64,000 nucleotides of DNA from Pseudomonas benzenivorans (GTDB lineage: Bacteria; Pseudomonadota; Gammaproteobacteria; Pseudomonadales; Pseudomonadaceae). The DNA is taken from positions 2,418,001 through 2,482,000 of the forward strand of contig NZ_CP137892.1 in the NCBI RefSeq assembly GCF_033547155.1, given 5' to 3'. Positions 55,766 to 64,000 of this stretch are shown here, piece after piece; the stretch's first letter is position 1; every line of letters begins with the position of its first letter. A model generated the notes under the pieces. It searched no databases. It had not been told where the DNA came from and saw only the letters and a list, made by a program, of their open reading frames with translations. A program made the translations under genes and the position numbers.

Positions 55766-56989
55766 ATGAGCGAGCACCAGCTTCCCCGTGGCGATGCCCT
55801 GGCCTGGGTCAACGGCAGCGATGCACCGGAGAAGAGCGCACTGAACCTGGGCTTCATGGCCCTGACCGACTCGGCCTCGCTGATCGTCGCCGCGACCCAG
55901 GGCTTCGCCCAGCCCTACGGCCTGACCCTGAACCTCAAGCGCCAGGCGTCCTGGGCCGGTCTTCGCGACAAGCTGCTCAGCGGCGAGCTGGACGCCGCCC
56001 AGGGCCTCTACGGCCTGCTCTATGCCGTGCACCTGGGCATCGGCGGCACCCCGCCGGTGGACATGGCGGTGCTCATGGGCCTGTCGCAGAACGGCCAGAG
56101 CATCAACCTCTCCCAGGCACTGCAACAAGCCGGCGTGAGCAATGTCGAGGCGCTGCGCGCACACGTGCGCCAAAAGGGTGCAAAGCTCACCCTGGCGCAG
56201 ACCTTCCCCACCGGCACTCACGTCCTGTGGCTCTACTACTGGCTGGCCAGCCATGGCATCCATCCGCTGGAGGATGTGCAGACGCTGGTCGTGCCGCCCG
56301 CGCAGATGGTCGCCCACCTGAAGGCCGGGCGCATCGACGGTTTCTGTGCCGGCGAACCCTGGGGCGCCCAGGCGATCGCAGAGTCCATGGGCTTCACCCT
56401 GACCACCAGCCAGTTGATCTGGCCCGGACACCCGGAGAAAGTCCTGGGCTGCACCCAGGCCTTCGTCAGCGCCTACCCCAACACGGCCCGCGCCCTGGTG
56501 ATGGCCGTGCTGGAGGCCAGCCGCTTCATCGACCAGAGCGAGGAGAACAAGCGTGGCACCGCGCAACTGCTCAGCGCCAGCGAGTACGTCGACGCACCAC
56601 TGAACGCCATCCAACCGCGTTTTCTCGGCCAGTACGAGGACGGCAACGGTCACGCCTGGCTGGATCCCCAGCCACTGCGCTTCTTCGACGAGGGCAAGGT
56701 GAACATGCCCTATCTGTCCGACGGCCTCTGGTTCATGACCCAGTTCCGCCGCTGGGGCCTGCTGCGCGACGACCCGGACTACCTGACCGTGGCTGCCCAG
56801 GTTCAGCAGCTCGGGCTCTATCATGAGGCGGCTGCGGCGCTGAGTATCGCCGTGCCGGCGACGCCCATGCGCAGCTCCGTGCTGCTCGATGGCAAGGTCT
56901 GGGACGGCAGCGACCCGGCCGCCTACGCCCGGAGCTTCGCCCTGCACGCCCTGGCCGGCGACGCCCTGGCCTCGACCGCGGCTCTCTAA
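55766..56989 (+). CDS. nasS: Nitrate/nitrite sensor protein NasS
   Basis: The 407-residue protein is related along its length to the nitrate-binding NrtA encoded at 61845 (for example LNLGFMALTDSA and GEPWGAQA against [12 protein letters not shown] and GEPWNQQA) but has no signal peptide, as expected for cytoplasmic NasS. NasS binds NasT when nitrate is absent and releases it when nitrate or nitrite binds. The ATG at 55766 has AAAGGAAGG 6 bases upstream. nasT follows 20 bases later. The context supports a regulatory rather than transport role. Confidence 0.9.
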   Translation: MSEHQLPRGDALAWVNGSDAPEKSALNLGFMALTDSASLIVAATQGFAQPYGLTLNLKRQASWAGLRDKLLSGELDAAQGLYGLLYAVHLGIGGTPPVDMAVLMGLSQNGQSINLSQALQQAGVSNVEALRAHVRQKGAKLTLAQTFPTGTHVLWLYYWLASHGIHPLEDVQTLVVPPAQMVAHLKAGRIDGFCAGEPWGAQAIAESMGFTLTTSQLIWPGHPEKVLGCTQAFVSAYPNTARALVMAVLEASRFIDQSEENKRGTAQLLSASEYVDAPLNAIQPRFLGQYEDGNGHAWLDPQPLRFFDEGKVNMPYLSDGLWFMTQFRRWGLLRDDPDYLTVAAQVQQLGLYHEAAAALSIAVPATPMRSSVLLDGKVWDGSDPAAYARSFALHALAGDALASTAAL

Positions 56990-57009
56990 ATTACGGAACC
57001 CCTGCCATC

Positions 57010-57588
57010 ATGTTGCGCATTCTCCTGATCAACGATACCCCGAAGAAGGTGGGCCGTCTCAAGACCGCCCTGATCGAGGCCGGCTTCGAGGTGATCGATG
57101 AGTCCGGGCTGACCATCGACCTGCCCGAGCGGGTCGAGGCGGTTCGTCCCGACGTCATCCTGATCGACAGCGAATCCCCCGGCCGTGACGTCATGGAGCA
57201 GGTGGTGCTGGTCAGCCGCGACCAGCCGCGGCCCATCGTCATGTTCACCGACGAGCACGACCCCAAGGTCATGCGCCAGGCCATCCAGTCCGGGGTCAGC
57301 GCCTACATAGTCGAAGGCATCCAGGCCGAGCGCCTGCAGCCGATCCTCGACGTGGCCATGGCCCGCTTCGAGAGCGACCAGGCCCTGCGCGCCCAGCTGC
57401 AGGCCCGCGACGCGCAGCTGGCCGAGCGCAAGCGCATCGAACTGGCCAAGGGCCTGCTGATGAAGATGAAGAGCTGCAACGAGGAAGAGGCCTACACCCT
57501 GATGCGCCGCCAGGCCATGAGCCGCCAGCAGAAGCTGATCCAGGTGGCCGAGCAGATCATCGCCATGCACGACATGCTCGGCGGCTGA
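57010..57588 (+). CDS. nasT: ANTAR-domain antiterminator NasT
   Basis: The 192-residue protein has an N-terminal receiver-like domain (about residues 1-120), with aspartate in PDVILIDSE at the usual phosphoacceptor region, and a C-terminal ANTAR RNA-binding domain (about 125-190, including ELAKGLLMKMKSCNEEEAYTLMR in its three-helix layout). NasT binds leader-RNA hairpins and prevents termination before nitrate assimilation genes when released by NasS. The nrtA leader at 61670-61820 carries a terminator and suitable hairpins. It is co-transcribed with nasS. Confidence 0.93.
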   Translation: MLRILLINDTPKKVGRLKTALIEAGFEVIDESGLTIDLPERVEAVRPDVILIDSESPGRDVMEQVVLVSRDQPRPIVMFTDEHDPKVMRQAIQSGVSAYIVEGIQAERLQPILDVAMARFESDQALRAQLQARDAQLAERKRIELAKGLLMKMKSCNEEEAYTLMRRQAMSRQQKLIQVAEQIIAMHDMLGG

Positions 57589-57758
57589 TCCACCTCGGGC
57601 AGTCGCCAGCTGTACCGCTAGACAGCCCACTGTGCTCCCCGGCGCAGGCTCCCGACGGCCCACTGTACCGACTTCTCCACAAACGGGTGTCACTGCTGTC
57701 GCGACAGCGGCCTGGCTAAGCTGGAAACACCTTCCAGCCCAGCGACAGCGAGCCTCCT

Positions 57759-59123
57759 ATGAACCACGACAATCACGAACGCCAACTCCTGGCCGAGGCC
57801 GACCGCCGCGCCCTCGCCTATTTCGACGACATAGCCGGCCGCCCGGTATTTCCGACGCCGACCGCCATCGCCGGGCTGCAGGCCTTCGATCAGGCCATCC
57901 CCGAGCAAGGCATGGCTGGCGCAGAGGTGCTGCGGCGCCTGGACGAGATCGGCTCGCCGGCCACCGTCGCGTCCAACGGTCCGCGCTATTTCGGCTTCGT
58001 CATCGGCGCCACCCTGCCCGCCGCCGCAGCCGCCGAGCGCCTGGTGCTGGCCTGGGATCAGTGCGCCTCGTCGTTCGACAACTCGCCGGCGGCCGATACC
58101 CTGGAGCGCATCGCCGGACGCTGGGTCTGCGAGGCCCTGGGCCTGCCCGCTGAGAGCGCCGTGGGCTTCGGCACCAGCGCCACCGCCTGCACTCTGGCCT
58201 GCCTGTCCGCCGCCCGGCGCACCCTGCTGGCCCGCCGCGGCTGGGACTTCGACGGCGACGGCCTGGTCGGCGCCCCGGAAGTCCGGGTGGTGGTCTCCGC
58301 CAGCTGCCACATCACCGTGAAGAAGGCGCTGCGCATCCTCGGTTTCGGCATGAACCGGCTGATCGTCGCGCCGACCGACGCCCATGGGCGCATCGACCCC
58401 GAACAATTGCCGCCTCTGGATGACCTGACCATCCTCTGCCTGCAGGCCGGCGAGGTGAACACCGGCGAGTTCGACCCCTTCGCCGAGCTGACCCCGTCGG
58501 CCAAGGCGGCCGGCGCCTGGGTGCACGTCGACGGCGCCTTCGGCCTGTGGGCCCGTGCCTCGTCCTCGGCCCATCTGGCTGCCGGGGTCGAGCAGGCCGA
58601 CAGCTGGACCAGCGACGGCCACAAATGGTTGAACACGCCCTACGACGGCGCCATGGCCATCTGCCGCGACGCCGACGCCCTGGCCACCGCGATGAACAGC
58701 GACGCGGCCTATGCCACGGCGTCCAAGGATGCGCAGAAAAACCTCACCCTGGAGTTCTCCCGCCGCGCCCGCGGGGTGGCGATCTGGGCCGCCCTCGCCA
58801 GCCTCGGCCGCGACGGCCTGCGCGAGATGATCGACCGGCATATCCGCCAGGCCGGCCACCTGGCCGCGAGCCTGCGCGCCCAGGGCTATCAGGTGCTCAA
58901 CCGGGCGGTGCTGAACCAGGTGCTGGTGCGCGCCGACAGCGATGAGCAGACCGTGGCCATTCGCCAGGCGGCCCAGGCCTCGGGCCGGGTCTGGTTCGGC
59001 CCCACCCTCTGGCAGGGGCGCCCGGCCTTTCGCCTGAGCGTGTCCTCCTGGCGCACCGAGGACGCCGACATCGAGGCGCTGATCGAACTGCTGAGCGAGC
59101 TCAAGCGCAGCACACCGGCCTGA
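57759..59123 (+). CDS. Pyridoxal phosphate-dependent group II decarboxylase-like protein
   Basis: The 454-residue protein has the group II decarboxylase fold: the PLP lysine is in TSDGHKWLN near residue 289 and the preceding aspartate in VHVDGAFG near 253. It opens with a helical region and GPRYFGFVIGAT as in aspartate/aromatic amino acid decarboxylase relatives. A segment near residue 165 reads DFDGDGLVG, which resembles a calcium-binding loop but is in a region where such enzymes have a similar sequence without calcium. Whether the protein decarboxylates or acts as a lyase/aminotransferase cannot be decided. The ATG at 57759 has only a weak ribosome binding site. Confidence 0.75.
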   Translation: MNHDNHERQLLAEADRRALAYFDDIAGRPVFPTPTAIAGLQAFDQAIPEQGMAGAEVLRRLDEIGSPATVASNGPRYFGFVIGATLPAAAAAERLVLAWDQCASSFDNSPAADTLERIAGRWVCEALGLPAESAVGFGTSATACTLACLSAARRTLLARRGWDFDGDGLVGAPEVRVVVSASCHITVKKALRILGFGMNRLIVAPTDAHGRIDPEQLPPLDDLTILCLQAGEVNTGEFDPFAELTPSAKAAGAWVHVDGAFGLWARASSSAHLAAGVEQADSWTSDGHKWLNTPYDGAMAICRDADALATAMNSDAAYATASKDAQKNLTLEFSRRARGVAIWAALASLGRDGLREMIDRHIRQAGHLAASLRAQGYQVLNRAVLNQVLVRADSDEQTVAIRQAAQASGRVWFGPTLWQGRPAFRLSVSSWRTEDADIEALIELLSELKRSTPA

Positions 59124-59228
59124 CAGCACTCGACAAAGGCCAGGCGCTGGGCTTATCTTCGCCGCCTGGCCAGCGCACTGGCCAACGTCGCTCGGACGGT
59201 TCCGGGCGCTTACGTTTTCGAGGACAGC

Positions 59229-60467
59229 ATGGCTGATCAAGCTTCGCGCCGCTTTGCGCGCATCGATCGACTCCCCCCCTACGTATTCAACATCACCGCC
59301 GAGCTGAAGATGGCCGCCCGCCGCCGTGGCGAGGACATCATCGACTTCAGCATGGGCAACCCCGACGGCGCCACCCCGCCGCACATAGTCGAGAAGCTCT
59401 GCACCGTCGCCCAGCGCGAAGACACCCACGGCTACTCCACCTCCCGCGGCATCCCGCGCCTGCGCCGGGCCATCTCGCGCTGGTATCAGGAGCGCTACCA
59501 GGTGGACATCGACCCGGAAAACGAGGCCATCGTCACCATCGGCTCCAAGGAAGGCCTGGCCCACCTGATGCTCGCCACGCTGGACCACGGCGACACCGTG
59601 CTGGTGCCCAACCCCAGCTACCCCATCCACATCTACGGCGCGGTGATCGCCGGCGCCCAGGTGCGCTCGGTGCCGCTGGTGCCGGGCGTGGACTTCTTCG
59701 CCGAACTGGAACGGGCCATCCGCGAGTCGATCCCCAAGCCGAAGATGATGATCCTCGGCTTCCCCTCCAACCCCACCGCCCAGTGCGTGGAGCTGGACTT
59801 CTTCGAGCGCGTGGTGGCCCTGGCCAAGCAGTACGACGTGCTGGTGGTCCACGACCTGGCCTACGCCGACATCGTCTACGACGGCTGGCAGGCGCCCTCG
59901 ATCATGCAGGTGCCCGGCGCCAAGGACATCGCCGTGGAGTTCTTCACCCTGTCCAAGAGCTACAACATGGCCGGCTGGCGCATCGGTTTCATGGTCGGCA
60001 ACAAGGAGCTGGTGAATGCCCTGGCGCGGATCAAGAGCTACCACGACTACGGCACCTTCACCCCGCTGCAGGTCGCGGCCATCGCCGCCCTGGAAGGCGA
60101 CCAGCAGTGCGTGCGCGACATCGCCGAGCAGTACCGCCAGCGCCGCAACCTGCTGGTCAAGGGCCTGCATGAGCTCGGCTGGATGGTGCAGAACCCCAAG
60201 GCCTCGATGTATGTCTGGGCGAAAATCCCCGAGCAGTATGCCGCGCTCGGCTCCCTGGAGTTCGCCAAGAAGCTGCTGCTCGAGGCCAAGGTCTGCGTGT
60301 CGCCGGGCCTGGGCTTCGGCGACTACGGCGACGACCATGTGCGTTTCGCCCTGATCGAGAACCAGGACCGCATCCGCCAGGCCCTGCGCGGCATCAAGGC
60401 CATGTTCCGCTCAGACGGTCTGTTGCCGACCACAGCAGGCAAGCCGCGCAAGGCCCCCGAGGCCTGA
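59229..60467 (+). CDS. alaC: Glutamate-pyruvate (alanine) aminotransferase
   Basis: The 412-residue class I aminotransferase has the PLP lysine in TLSKSYNMAGWRIGF near residue 243, the aspartate-tyrosine pair in VVHDLAYAD and the FPSNPTAQ motif. Its overall sequence matches AlaC/YfdZ, which makes alanine from pyruvate and glutamate. The ATG at 59229 is preceded by GAGGA. It converges on the small lipoprotein gene; an 8-bp inverted repeat with a long loop lies between them (60473-60505). Confidence 0.88.
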   Translation: MADQASRRFARIDRLPPYVFNITAELKMAARRRGEDIIDFSMGNPDGATPPHIVEKLCTVAQREDTHGYSTSRGIPRLRRAISRWYQERYQVDIDPENEAIVTIGSKEGLAHLMLATLDHGDTVLVPNPSYPIHIYGAVIAGAQVRSVPLVPGVDFFAELERAIRESIPKPKMMILGFPSNPTAQCVELDFFERVVALAKQYDVLVVHDLAYADIVYDGWQAPSIMQVPGAKDIAVEFFTLSKSYNMAGWRIGFMVGNKELVNALARIKSYHDYGTFTPLQVAAIAALEGDQQCVRDIAEQYRQRRNLLVKGLHELGWMVQNPKASMYVWAKIPEQYAALGSLEFAKKLLLEAKVCVSPGLGFGDYGDDHVRFALIENQDRIRQALRGIKAMFRSDGLLPTTAGKPRKAPEA

Positions 60468-60472
60468 ACCAG

Positions 60473-60505
60473 GCACGCCCTGCGGCCCTACGCTGCCGGG
60501 CGTGC
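60473..60505. other. Inverted repeat between alaC and the lipoprotein gene
   Basis: GCACGCCC (60473-60480) pairs with GGGCGTGC (60498-60505) across a 17-base loop between converging genes. No T run follows, so termination would be weak. Confidence 0.35.
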
Positions 60506-60507
60506 AC

Positions 60508-60900
60508 TCATCCCGAGTAATCCAGCACCGTCCATACCCGGCTCAGCCCGGCCCCTATCACGCAGCCGGACTCGTCCAGGCGCCGGTTGTAGTGCAACGA
60601 CATCAGGCTGGTCACCCCCTCCGCGGCATCCCGCCGCTCGGTCAACCATTGCACCCGTCCGCAGTTGGGCGTCTCGATCACATAGCTGGCAGCCACCGCC
60701 GCATGCTCGCTGGGTAACCTGATCGCATCGACCACCGTCCCCCGTTCCTCTATCCGCTTGCCATCGGCCACCAACACCGCCCAGGCCTGGCCGTTCTCTA
60801 TCACCAGATAGCTGCCATTGGCCTTGGGTTGCTCGACCTGGGGCTGGGCACAGCCGCTCAACAGGACCAACAGCACAATCGTCATCAAGCTCTGTTGCAT
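60508..60900 (-). CDS. Small predicted lipoprotein
   Basis: The 130-residue protein has an N-terminal lipoprotein signal ending in VLLSGC (cysteine near residue 17), followed by a mature part of about 113 residues with two further cysteines (TPNCGRV and ESGCVIG) that could form a disulfide in the periplasm. No domain is recognised. The LexA-type box at 60995-61014 lies about 95 bases upstream of its start, so it could share SOS control with the divergent gene. Confidence 0.75.
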   Translation of the reverse strand: MQQSLMTIVLLVLLSGCAQPQVEQPKANGSYLVIENGQAWAVLVADGKRIEERGTVVDAIRLPSEHAAVAASYVIETPNCGRVQWLTERRDAAEGVTSLMSLHYNRRLDESGCVIGAGLSRVWTVLDYSG

Positions 60901-60994
60901 TGTTCATTGCTCCTCTGCTGTGCGCCAGGGTCTCAGTGTCTGGGAACCGGGCGAACGAGTGAGTTCGAAAGGCGACGGTCTTACTATTGTCGAA

Positions 60995-61014
60995 TACTGT
61001 TTATTTGTACAGTA
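60995..61014. promoter_or_regulatory. LexA (SOS) box
   Basis: TACTG (60995-60999) and CAGTA (61010-61014) flank exactly ten bases, giving a full TACTG-N10-CAGTA palindrome (CTGT-N8-ACAG core) with an AT-rich centre, the gammaproteobacterial LexA consensus. It overlaps a possible promoter (TTGTCG 60987-60992, CAGTAT 61010-61015, 17 bases apart). It lies 88 bases upstream of the 105-residue gene and 95 upstream of the lipoprotein gene. Confidence 0.8.
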
Positions 61015-61101
61015 TTTTTCCACTAGACTGTCCCTCGCCACCGGTCGCCCTTCGCCTAGACCCGGGCCGGCCATTTCGGAGCATCAATCGGGAGCAAAAC
61101 G

Positions 61102-61419
61102 ATGCTGGACGTACTGCAACTGAAACACCGGGTAAACCGGATGCCGCTGGACAGGGTTCGCGCGACGGTCGAGGAGCTGCAGCTCGAAGGCATAGTCACC
61201 GAGGGCAAGACCCCCTTCAACCGCGTGCACTTCAACACCTGCTTCGCCGAGATCGAAGCCCTGCTGCAGCGCGCCGGCTACCACAGGCAGCTGGATGTGG
61301 TGGGGTATCAGGGCCTGGCCTATGCCCTGTTCGATCCGGCACGCTGGGATGCCGTGCAGGTGCTGAGATGGCTCAGGGAGTTCGTCGAGGAAGCTCACGC
61401 CCAGCCAGTATCGCGCTGA
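61102..61419 (+). CDS. Uncharacterised 105-residue protein behind a LexA box
   Basis: The protein begins MLDVLQLKHRVNRMPLDRV and is soluble, rich in arginine, aspartate and glutamate, with no signal or membrane segment. No domain is recognised. The central part (FNTCFAEIEALLQRAGYH) is probably helical. GGGAG lies 8 bases before the ATG, and codon use is native GC-rich, so it is a real gene. A perfect LexA-type box 88 bases upstream predicts DNA-damage induction. Function unknown. Confidence 0.75.
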   Translation: MLDVLQLKHRVNRMPLDRVRATVEELQLEGIVTEGKTPFNRVHFNTCFAEIEALLQRAGYHRQLDVVGYQGLAYALFDPARWDAVQVLRWLREFVEEAHAQPVSR

Positions 61420-61676
61420 GCTGCGCCGTGGAGTGGTCGCTGGCGCACCAAGCCGAAGCAGAAGCGCCCAGCCCCTGTCCATTTCGCCCGCCGATGGCTC
61501 AACGAGCGGCCTTGGCGCGGCGCGGCCGAGCGCCGTGCGCCTGCCGGCAGTGCGTCTGAGCGACCTCATGAAGCACCTGAATATTTTTCATAACCTACTG
61601 ATTTAAAAGCCTATAGACCGCAGAGTCGCGAGTGCTCGGCGGCCGCCGGCCCGCTTTTGCGCAGCCGGAATCGGCC

Positions 61677-61751
61677 GCTGGCAAGGAAGCTGGCAAGTCC
61701 CTTGCAATTACCTCCTCGGCAAACGTCATCGGATCGCCAACGGCGGTGATC
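61677..61751 (+). promoter_or_regulatory. Candidate NasT (ANTAR) target hairpins in the nrtA leader
   Basis: Hairpin P2 pairs GATCGCC (61732-61738) with GGTGATC (61745-61751) around the hexaloop AACGGC; hairpin P1 pairs GCTGGC (61677-61682) with GCTGGC (61689-61694) through two G-T pairs around AAGGAA. Both loops have A at position 1 and G at position 4, the ANTAR-binding rule. P1 is weaker and overlaps other possible pairings; the linker is 37 bases. Confidence 0.6.
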
Positions 61752-61764
61752 GGGACGAATAGAC

Positions 61765-61819
61765 AAAGACGTCGAAGGCAGCCTGCCCCCAGGGGCGGTT
61801 TGTCCGCGACGTCTTTTTT
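61765..61819 (+). terminator. Regulated terminator in the nrtA leader
   Basis: A 10-bp stem AAAGACGTCG (61765-61774) with CGACGTCTTT (61807-61816) closes a long loop containing a second hairpin, followed by a T run to 61819. It lies 25 bases before the nrtA start and 13 bases after P2, as required for antitermination. Confidence 0.85.
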
Positions 61820-61844
61820 CGTTTTCGAGACCTGAGGAATCACC

Positions 61845-63233
61845 ATGCGTACATTCACCGTTCGCCGTTCCCTGCTGAAGAAGACCCTGGCCGGCCTCGG
61901 CTGCGCCGCCGCCCTGCTGTTCTCGCCGCTGAGCCTGCAAGTCGCCCAGGCCGCCGAGCCCGAGAAGGACGAACTCAAGCTCGGCTTCATCAAGCTGACC
62001 GACATGGCGCCGCTGGCCATCGCCTACGAGAAGGGCTACTTCGAGGACGAGGGCCTGTACGTCACCCTCGAGGCCCAGGCCAACTGGAAGGTGCTGCTGG
62101 ACCGGGTGATCACCGGCGAGCTGGACGGCGCACACATGCTGGCCGGCCAGCCGCTGGGCGCCACCATCGGCTTCGGCACCCAGGCCGAGGTGGTCACCGC
62201 CTTCTCCATGGACCTCAACGGCAACGGCATCACCCTGTCCAACGCCGTCTGGGAGGAAATGAAGAAGCACGTGCCGATGGAGAACGGCAAGCCGCTGCAC
62301 CCGATCAAGGCCGATGCCCTGAAGCCGGTGATCGAGCAGTACAAGGCCCAGGGCAAGCCCTTCAACCTGGGCATGGTGTTCCCGGTCTCCACCCACAACT
62401 ACGAGCTGCGCTACTGGCTGGCCGCCGGCGGCATCAACCCCGGCTACTACGCGCCGGCCAAGGGCGACATCGCCGGCACCATCAACGCCGACGCACTGCT
62501 CTCGGTCACCCCGCCGCCGCAGATGCCGGCGACCATGGAGGCCGGCACCATCAACGGCTACAGCGTGGGCGAGCCGTGGAACCAGCAAGCCGTGTTCAAG
62601 GGCATCGGCGTGCCGGTGATCACCGACTACGAGATCTGGAAGAACAACCCGGAGAAGGTCTTCGGCGTATCCAAGGCCTGGGCCGAGGCCAACCCGGAGA
62701 CCCACAAGCGCCTGGTCAAGGCGTTGATCCGCGCCGCCATGTGGCTGGACGCGGACGGCAACGCCAACCGCGCCGAGGCGGTGAAGATCCTCTCGCGTCC
62801 CGAGTACGTCGGCGCCGACGCCAAGGTGATCGCCAACTCCATGACCGGAACCTTCGAGTACGAGAAGGGTGACACCCGGGAAGTGCCGGATTTCAACGTG
62901 TTCTTCCGCTACCACGCCACCTACCCCTACTACTCCGACGCCATCTGGTACCTGACCCAGATGCGTCGCTGGGGCCAGATCGGCGAGGCCAAGCCCGACA
63001 GCTGGTACCTGGACGTGGCCAAGCAGGTCTACCTGCCGGAGATCTACCGCAGCGCCGCGGCCGAACTGGTGGAAGAAGGCCTGGCCAAGTCCGAGGACTT
63101 CCCGGACGCCGGCGAGGAGGGTTTCCGCGCGCCGACCAACGAGTTCATCGATGGCCTGACCTACGACGGGCGCAAGCCGAACGAGTACATCAACCAATTC
63201 AAGATTGGCCTGAAAGCCGACTCCGTTCTGTAA
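61845..63233 (+). CDS. nrtA: Nitrate ABC importer, periplasmic binding protein
   Basis: The 462-residue protein has a twin-arginine-like signal (VRRSLLKKT near residue 6, cleavage near VAQAAE at about 37) and an NrtA/CmpA-type body ([21 protein letters not shown], with [10 protein letters not shown] near residue 243). NrtA captures nitrate or nitrite for an ABC importer; bicarbonate is bound by close relatives, so nitrate is inferred from the nasST genes nearby. GAGGAA precedes the ATG. The permease gene follows 58 bases later. Confidence 0.9.
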
Positions 63234-63291
63234 CCCGCCACTGCCCAGGGAGCCGGACCCGCCGGCTCCCCTCTGCTTCGAGGACAAGACG

Positions 63292-64000
63292 ATGAGCAAC
63301 CCCGCCGTCGCCCAACCCATACGGGAAACCCTGAAGTCGGCACGCAGCCTGGCCTTCAAGCGCTGGCTGCCAAATCTGCTGATGCCGGCCATCGGCGTGC
63401 TGGCCTTCCTGCTGTTCTGGCAGATAGTCGCCGGCAGCATCGACACCAGCCTGGGCAAGTTCCCCGGCCCGACCCAGGCCGCCAGCCAGTTCGGCGCCCT
63501 GGTGGGCGAACACCTGCGCGAGCAGAAGAAGGCCGAGGCCTTCTACCTGCGCCAGAAGGCGCGCAACGCCGCCACCCTGGCGAAGAACCCGGACGCCGAG
63601 GTGAAGATCCGTCCCTATACCGGCAAGCCGACCTTCTTCAAGCAGATCTTCACCAGCCTCTACACGGTGCTGACCGGCTTCGTCCTCGCCTCCCTGCTGG
63701 CCATCCCGCTGGGGATCGTCTGCGGCCTGAGCAAGCCGATCTACAACGCGGTCAACCCGCTGATCCAGGTGTTCAAGCCGGTCTCGCCGCTGGCCTGGCT
63801 GCCGCTGGTGACCATGGTGGTCAGCGCCCTGTACACCAGCAGCGATCCGCTGATGGCCAAGTCCTTCGTCACCTCGGCGATCACCGTGGCGCTGTGCTGC
63901 CTGTGGCCGACGGTGATCAACACCACGGTGGGCGTGGCCAACCTCGACCAGGACCTGCGCAACGTCAGTCGGGTGCTCAGCCTGTCGCCGCTGTCCCATG
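63292..64000 (+). CDS. nrtB: Nitrate ABC importer permease, partial (right edge)
   Basis: The frame starts at an ATG at 63292 (MSNPAVAQPIRETLK, with GAGGACA upstream) and is still open at the window end after 236 codons. It has an N-terminal transmembrane helix (about residues 30-50), a hydrophilic segment of about 65 residues (RLRQKARNAATLAKN-like, here YLRQKARNAATLAK), then permease helices starting near 120, and the text SVTSAITVAL-type core (FVTSAITVALCCLWP). This is the NrtB arrangement. The rest of the gene and the ATPase genes are expected beyond the window. Confidence 0.87.
   Translation, partial: MSNPAVAQPIRETLKSARSLAFKRWLPNLLMPAIGVLAFLLFWQIVAGSIDTSLGKFPGPTQAASQFGALVGEHLREQKKAEAFYLRQKARNAATLAKNPDAEVKIRPYTGKPTFFKQIFTSLYTVLTGFVLASLLAIPLGIVCGLSKPIYNAVNPLIQVFKPVSPLAWLPLVTMVVSALYTSSDPLMAKSFVTSAITVALCCLWPTVINTTVGVANLDQDLRNVSRVLSLSPLSH

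Follow-up and report, generated by a model that had tools for sequence, protein, structure and literature searches.

A stretch of 64,000 nucleotides of Pseudomonas benzenivorans DNA (contig NZ_CP137892.1; hereafter the window) was found to carry a LexA (SOS) box between two divergent genes, one for a protein of 105 residues and the other for a putative lipoprotein. By all the evidence computed here the box is a genuine LexA operator. We consider it likely, as one joint claim, that LexA binds at this site and controls the 105-residue gene, and that the encoded protein is the orthologue of PA0922 of P. aeruginosa. The regulatory part of this claim is known in kind, because PA0922 has already been reported in the LexA regulon; what is new here is that the box is probably shared with the divergent lipoprotein gene.

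The first-pass annotation had read the palindrome TACTG-N10-CAGTA at 60995-61014, and the site was indeed found there; nowhere else in the window is this pattern matched with one mismatch or none. This ten-base pattern alone is not decisive, because 22 of 100 shuffled windows held at least one match at no more than one mismatch (mean 0.24 per shuffle). In its extended form, TACTGT-N8-ACAGTA, the site agrees at all 12 fixed bases; base composition predicts 0.0005 such sites in 64 kb and 0.04 in 4.5 Mb, and the 4.5-Mb genome has two perfect ones. The operator core of the LexA (SOS) regulon, CTGT-N8-ACAG, is likewise present at this position, near putative promoters. This looser core has three matches in the window; since 0.64 are expected, the other two, at 57610-57625 and at 60420-60435 (the latter within an aminotransferase open reading frame, ORF), are probably chance.

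Up to 600 bases upstream of the gene were read in 173 homologue loci, a set in which some genomes occur twice and 32 of the 142 further same-genus genomes were hand-picked. At least 10 of the 12 fixed bases were matched in 170 of these loci (12 in 86, 11 in 58 and 10 in 26), compared with 4/173 shuffled upstream stretches and 6/173 for the reversed pattern; two loci matched 9 bases and one matched 8. Counted as the 145 loci distinct in their 300-base upstream stretch, the numbers at 12, 11, 10, 9 and 8 were 71, 49, 22, 2 and 1; for locus L102 the register is wrong in the fixed-base counts and in the classes described below, its box being present on direct reading. The earlier proposal had been made to depend on the box recurring upstream of homologues, and it does recur. 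The sole locus read without a recognisable box was L128 (genome G126), where the best site within 1.8 kb matched 8/12. The distance to the gene is greater in two loci, L147 with about 500 bases and L076 of P. flavescens with a perfect box 392 bases upstream, which was out of view in a first 400-base scan. In L076 (3609-4000) some 390 bases separate box and gene and the lipoprotein lies at about its usual distance, which looks like an insertion on the gene side. Because the box precedes it in nearly all the Pseudomonas relatives examined, it is very probable that the small gene is part of the DNA-damage response, as reported for its P. aeruginosa relative; the same suggestion in the first-pass annotation is supported by this conservation and by the place of PA0922 in the LexA regulon.

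The genome has a LexA of the matching type, in one copy (a single LexA_DNA_bind match, E 5.2e-31), and a weaker box, CACTGTATAAAAAAACAGAG, lies directly before the genome's own lexA. The second perfect site precedes a umuD-like gene followed by umuC, and sites with one or two mismatches precede recA, yebG, an integrase gene and a radical-SAM gene (gene names by eye), the last of which we take to be of the PA0069 type. At up to two mismatches there was no genome-wide enrichment (17 sites versus 39 for a reversed control pattern) and the other two-mismatch sites look like chance; only the best sites, together with conservation, are therefore given weight. The integrase site (L135; G000 3981268-3981287) is a two-mismatch LexA-like sequence, AACTGTATATTTACACAGTC, directly 5' of an integrase-like ORF.

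The relation to PA0922 was established through the P. aeruginosa record NZ_CP131792.1, from a plasmid collection, in which tblastn found a homologue 70% identical across 97% of the query (70/104 residues identical). The gene order there is gacS ... dinB / homologue / hypothetical / mprF ... rimO, the homologue being divergent from dinB with a tRNA-Met between them. Its box, CTGTATATTCGTACAG / AACTGTATATTCGTACAGCC, matches 9/12 fixed bases and ends about 50 bases before the start. The available text of PMC8944484 describes PA0922 as a LexA-regulon gene placed divergent from dinB, and that of PMC1250226 lists it as 3.7-fold induced by hydrogen peroxide. The identity with PA0922 was assigned by position, because NZ_CP131792.1 has no PA numbers. 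PA2288, an earlier candidate for the orthologue, was dropped once the dinB-linked record was found. The PA0922 system and that of the window have in common a homologous protein, an upstream LexA box and a divergent neighbour across the box; they differ in that this neighbour is dinB, with the tRNA-Met between, in the P. aeruginosa record and a lipoprotein gene in the window. No match to the lipoprotein was found in 16.3 kb of the P. aeruginosa sequence. The comparison bears on a caution given in the available text of PMC8944484, that dinB should not be credited with the LexA binding seen in its vicinity in P. aeruginosa. The own dinB of the P. benzenivorans genome has no box of at least 9/12 within a 3.4-kb stretch. 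Upstream of this dinB (L159) are two tRNA-Met genes, followed by a rimO-like ORF, which recalls the P. aeruginosa layout without the homologue. The P. aeruginosa plasmid record (L189) is 847 kb long, and its gacS-dinB-mprF-rimO segment is chromosome-like.

Within the window, the start of the 105-residue gene lies 88 positions beyond the box (87 bases between) and GGGAG is present before it, in agreement with the distance and ribosome-binding site noted earlier. On the other side, 94 bases separate the box from the lipoprotein ORF, whose start resembles that of a lipoprotein and scored 17.1 bits with LPAM_1, under the cut-off of 20, and whose LLSGC motif was read from the translation. The lipoprotein is present in 32/199 same-genus genomes, and all 32 also carry the gene, on the same contig and within about 1 kb (compared by eye); in genome G075 the lipoprotein shows up as two pieces, on separate contigs. 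In a second genus, g3, it stands beside the gene in 22 of 24 carriers. A search for the lipoprotein elsewhere in genomes whose gene stands without it gave 0/26. Seventeen of 80 named loci show none of the three other window neighbours in flanks of up to 4 kb, and 13 of these keep the lipoprotein (one, L085, is short of flank on one side). The pair of genes therefore persists in other surroundings, with shared descent contributing to this figure.

The spacer of the box goes with the presence or absence of the lipoprotein. We divided 136 distinct upstream sequences into three classes: class A, of 79 sequences, has the spacer TTAT[T/C]TGT and the lipoprotein in all; a second lipoprotein-bearing class of 23 consists of 22 sequences with TCATGCAT-like spacers and the out-of-register L102, which belongs to class A; and class C, of 34 sequences, has no lipoprotein and has spacers beginning with A, such as ATGTTTGT or ATATAAAT. 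Mean column identity over the 79 sequences of class A was 0.96 for the fixed bases, 0.99 for the spacer, and 0.50 and 0.43 for the flanks. Promoter motifs were counted in 78 distinct class A sequences. On the forward side, TAnnnT begins 9 bases past the box in 69/78 and 8 bases past it in a further 8; on the reverse side, nAnnnT (AATAGT in the window) begins 6 bases past the box in 74/78, with a second register at 3 bases in 43. With 17-base spacers from these -10-like motifs, both putative -35 regions fall inside the box (Table 1), and this would explain the near-invariance of the eight spacer bases.

Table 1. Features of the LexA box region, with window coordinates.
Feature	Position	Strand	Basis
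LexA (SOS) box TACTGTTTATTTGTACAGTA	60995-61014	.	12/12 fixed bases of TACTGT-N8-ACAGTA; conserved 5' of homologues
105-aa protein, orthologue in the place of PA0922, predicted winged-helix-like	61102-61419	+	ATG start; homology and fold model
Ribosome-binding site GGGAG	61090-61094	+	Read from sequence
-35-like TTATTT in box, for forward gene	61001-61006	+	Weak consensus match; inferred from 17-base spacing
-10-like TAGACT, for forward gene	61024-61029	+	TAnnnT at this distance from box in 69/78, closer by one base in 8
130-aa putative lipoprotein (MQQSLMTIVLLVLLSGC), divergent partner	60508-60900	-	Near-cut-off LPAM_1; pairing with gene
-35-like TGTACA in box, for lipoprotein gene	61006-61011	-	Inferred from spacing
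-10-like AATAGT, for lipoprotein gene	60983-60988	-	nAnnnT at this distance from box in 74/78

What was computed, namely the conserved site, the homology, the lipoprotein pairing and the flanking -10-like motifs, suggests a simple mechanism. In undamaged cells a LexA dimer on the box would cover the -35 regions of both promoters, which stand back to back, and so shut off the 105-residue gene as well as the divergent lipoprotein gene; DNA damage would then lead to RecA-stimulated cleavage of LexA and free both promoters. That one LexA dimer controls both genes, by binding and occlusion, is in our opinion somewhat more probable than the reverse. The first-pass annotation had guessed that the lipoprotein might also take part in the damage response, and that guess now has the pairing and a conserved -10-like motif in its favour. 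No paper describing an operator shared with this lipoprotein was found in a literature search on PA0922, PA2288, PA2723 and LexA in Pseudomonas only. If true, such an SOS module would link DNA damage to a cell-envelope response, and the prediction that follows is of a single site with two damage-induced promoters.

Several observations weigh against this interpretation. A standard scan found no promoter and the -35 matches are weak, which is why the promoter layout is put forward here as a suggestion. The dinB neighbourhood of PA0922 is also not matched, dinB being elsewhere in this genome; within the flanks covered, L176 and L189 are the only compared loci that have dinB next to the gene.

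Perhaps LexA controls the 105-residue gene only, the lipoprotein gene being merely adjacent and independent of damage. We regard this as rather unlikely, yet it has some evidence on its side: the 34 distinct lipoprotein-less sequences keep the box, which makes the 105-residue gene the constant target, and 22 of the 34 have a -35-like TTGRC element 14-30 bases before the box, versus 5/79 in class A. Judged from this element, the loci without the lipoprotein would have a different promoter layout. A bystander would not be expected to occur only beside the gene and nowhere else, as the lipoprotein does, nor to have the AATAGT-type -10 motif at its fixed distance from the box, and the association of spacer type with lipoprotein presence also argues against it.

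A second regulator acting on top of LexA, perhaps the 105-residue protein on its own promoter, could also account for the near-invariant spacer. This was suggested by the comparison with YebG, another short SOS-induced protein with an upstream LexA box, likened to ours by box and size. The yebG box was found at 9/12 or better in 29/29 loci (those of L211 and L212 being probably chance), and its spacer varies, with an identity of 0.59-0.93 in these 29 loci, which come from almost the same set of genomes, whereas that of the 105-residue gene does not. The predicted winged-helix-like fold would also suit a regulator. However, two overlapping promoters suffice to explain the invariance, the spacer differs in genus g3 and in the loci without the lipoprotein, and the 105-residue protein has an acidic isoelectric point; we therefore find a second regulator improbable.

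It is extremely improbable that the palindrome arose by chance or is the site of an unrelated regulator: the lack of enrichment at two mismatches and the shuffled windows speak for such a reading, but the 12/12 match and above all the conservation upstream of homologues in varied surroundings led us to reject it.

The 105-residue protein belongs to a Pseudomonas family that most of the same-genus genomes sampled contain (172/199, with one match per carrier genome), and it was also found in 24/25 genomes of g3. An order-wide sample of 194 genomes gave matches in 7, all within the Pseudomonadaceae, and no relatives outside this family. Of the 27 genomes of the genus that lack it, 20 were searched with a broad profile, as was one g2 genome; this returned partial matches only, in 4/21, with a best E of 0.036. 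A second match in G113 (L158) was discarded, since it is probably a frame that happens to lie opposite another gene. A phage or plasmid origin was also rejected: there was no match in phages, one scan of viral contigs yielded no confirmed match, and the one plasmid record is a large P. aeruginosa replicon with a chromosome-like segment.

No domain had been recognised in the protein at first, and the family libraries gave nothing convincing either: Pfam and NCBIfam searches with 45 family members had a best E of 0.0058, to an unrelated domain. This was Pfam Csm6_6H, matched by 5/45 members and set aside (13.5 bits against a cut-off of 27.6 in one member). Many homologues are named transcriptional regulator by NCBI. 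The predicted fold, from one model of five with a predicted local distance difference test score (pLDDT) of 88.8, runs helix 16-29, strand 31-33, helices 41-46 and 48-57, strands 65-69 and 73-77, and helix 84-100. Foldseek comparisons to MarR and ArsR regulators gave weak rows only (E 0.08 or worse), and a family unlisted by the structural aligner is not thereby excluded. Only one of 496 Foldseek matches had an E of up to 0.001, the phage protein A0A8S5U7R0 (Siphoviridae sp. ctLKT1; E 5.6e-4, probability 1.00, template modelling (TM) scores 0.60/0.65, 94 alignment columns). It is uncharacterised and only 20% identical, and the phage records hold no sequence relative of the 105-residue protein. 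PA2723 of P. aeruginosa (PDB 6tcb) is counted among the closest known systems. Tentatively, and with less than even confidence, the best description from the fold model is a small winged-helix-like domain that may serve the damage response as an accessory factor, binding DNA or protein. The full proposal, of a Pseudomonas-specific SOS module in which one operator with two opposed -35 elements co-induces a lipoprotein and a winged-helix-like protein, is unlikely to hold in every part. The survey presented here maps the carriers of this uncharacterised gene, which is preceded by its LexA box at nearly every locus examined, and shows which of them have the lipoprotein partner.

Finally, no Rfam family was matched in 56000-64000, and a terminator-like site is present at 60973-60992, where 0.6 such sites were expected.
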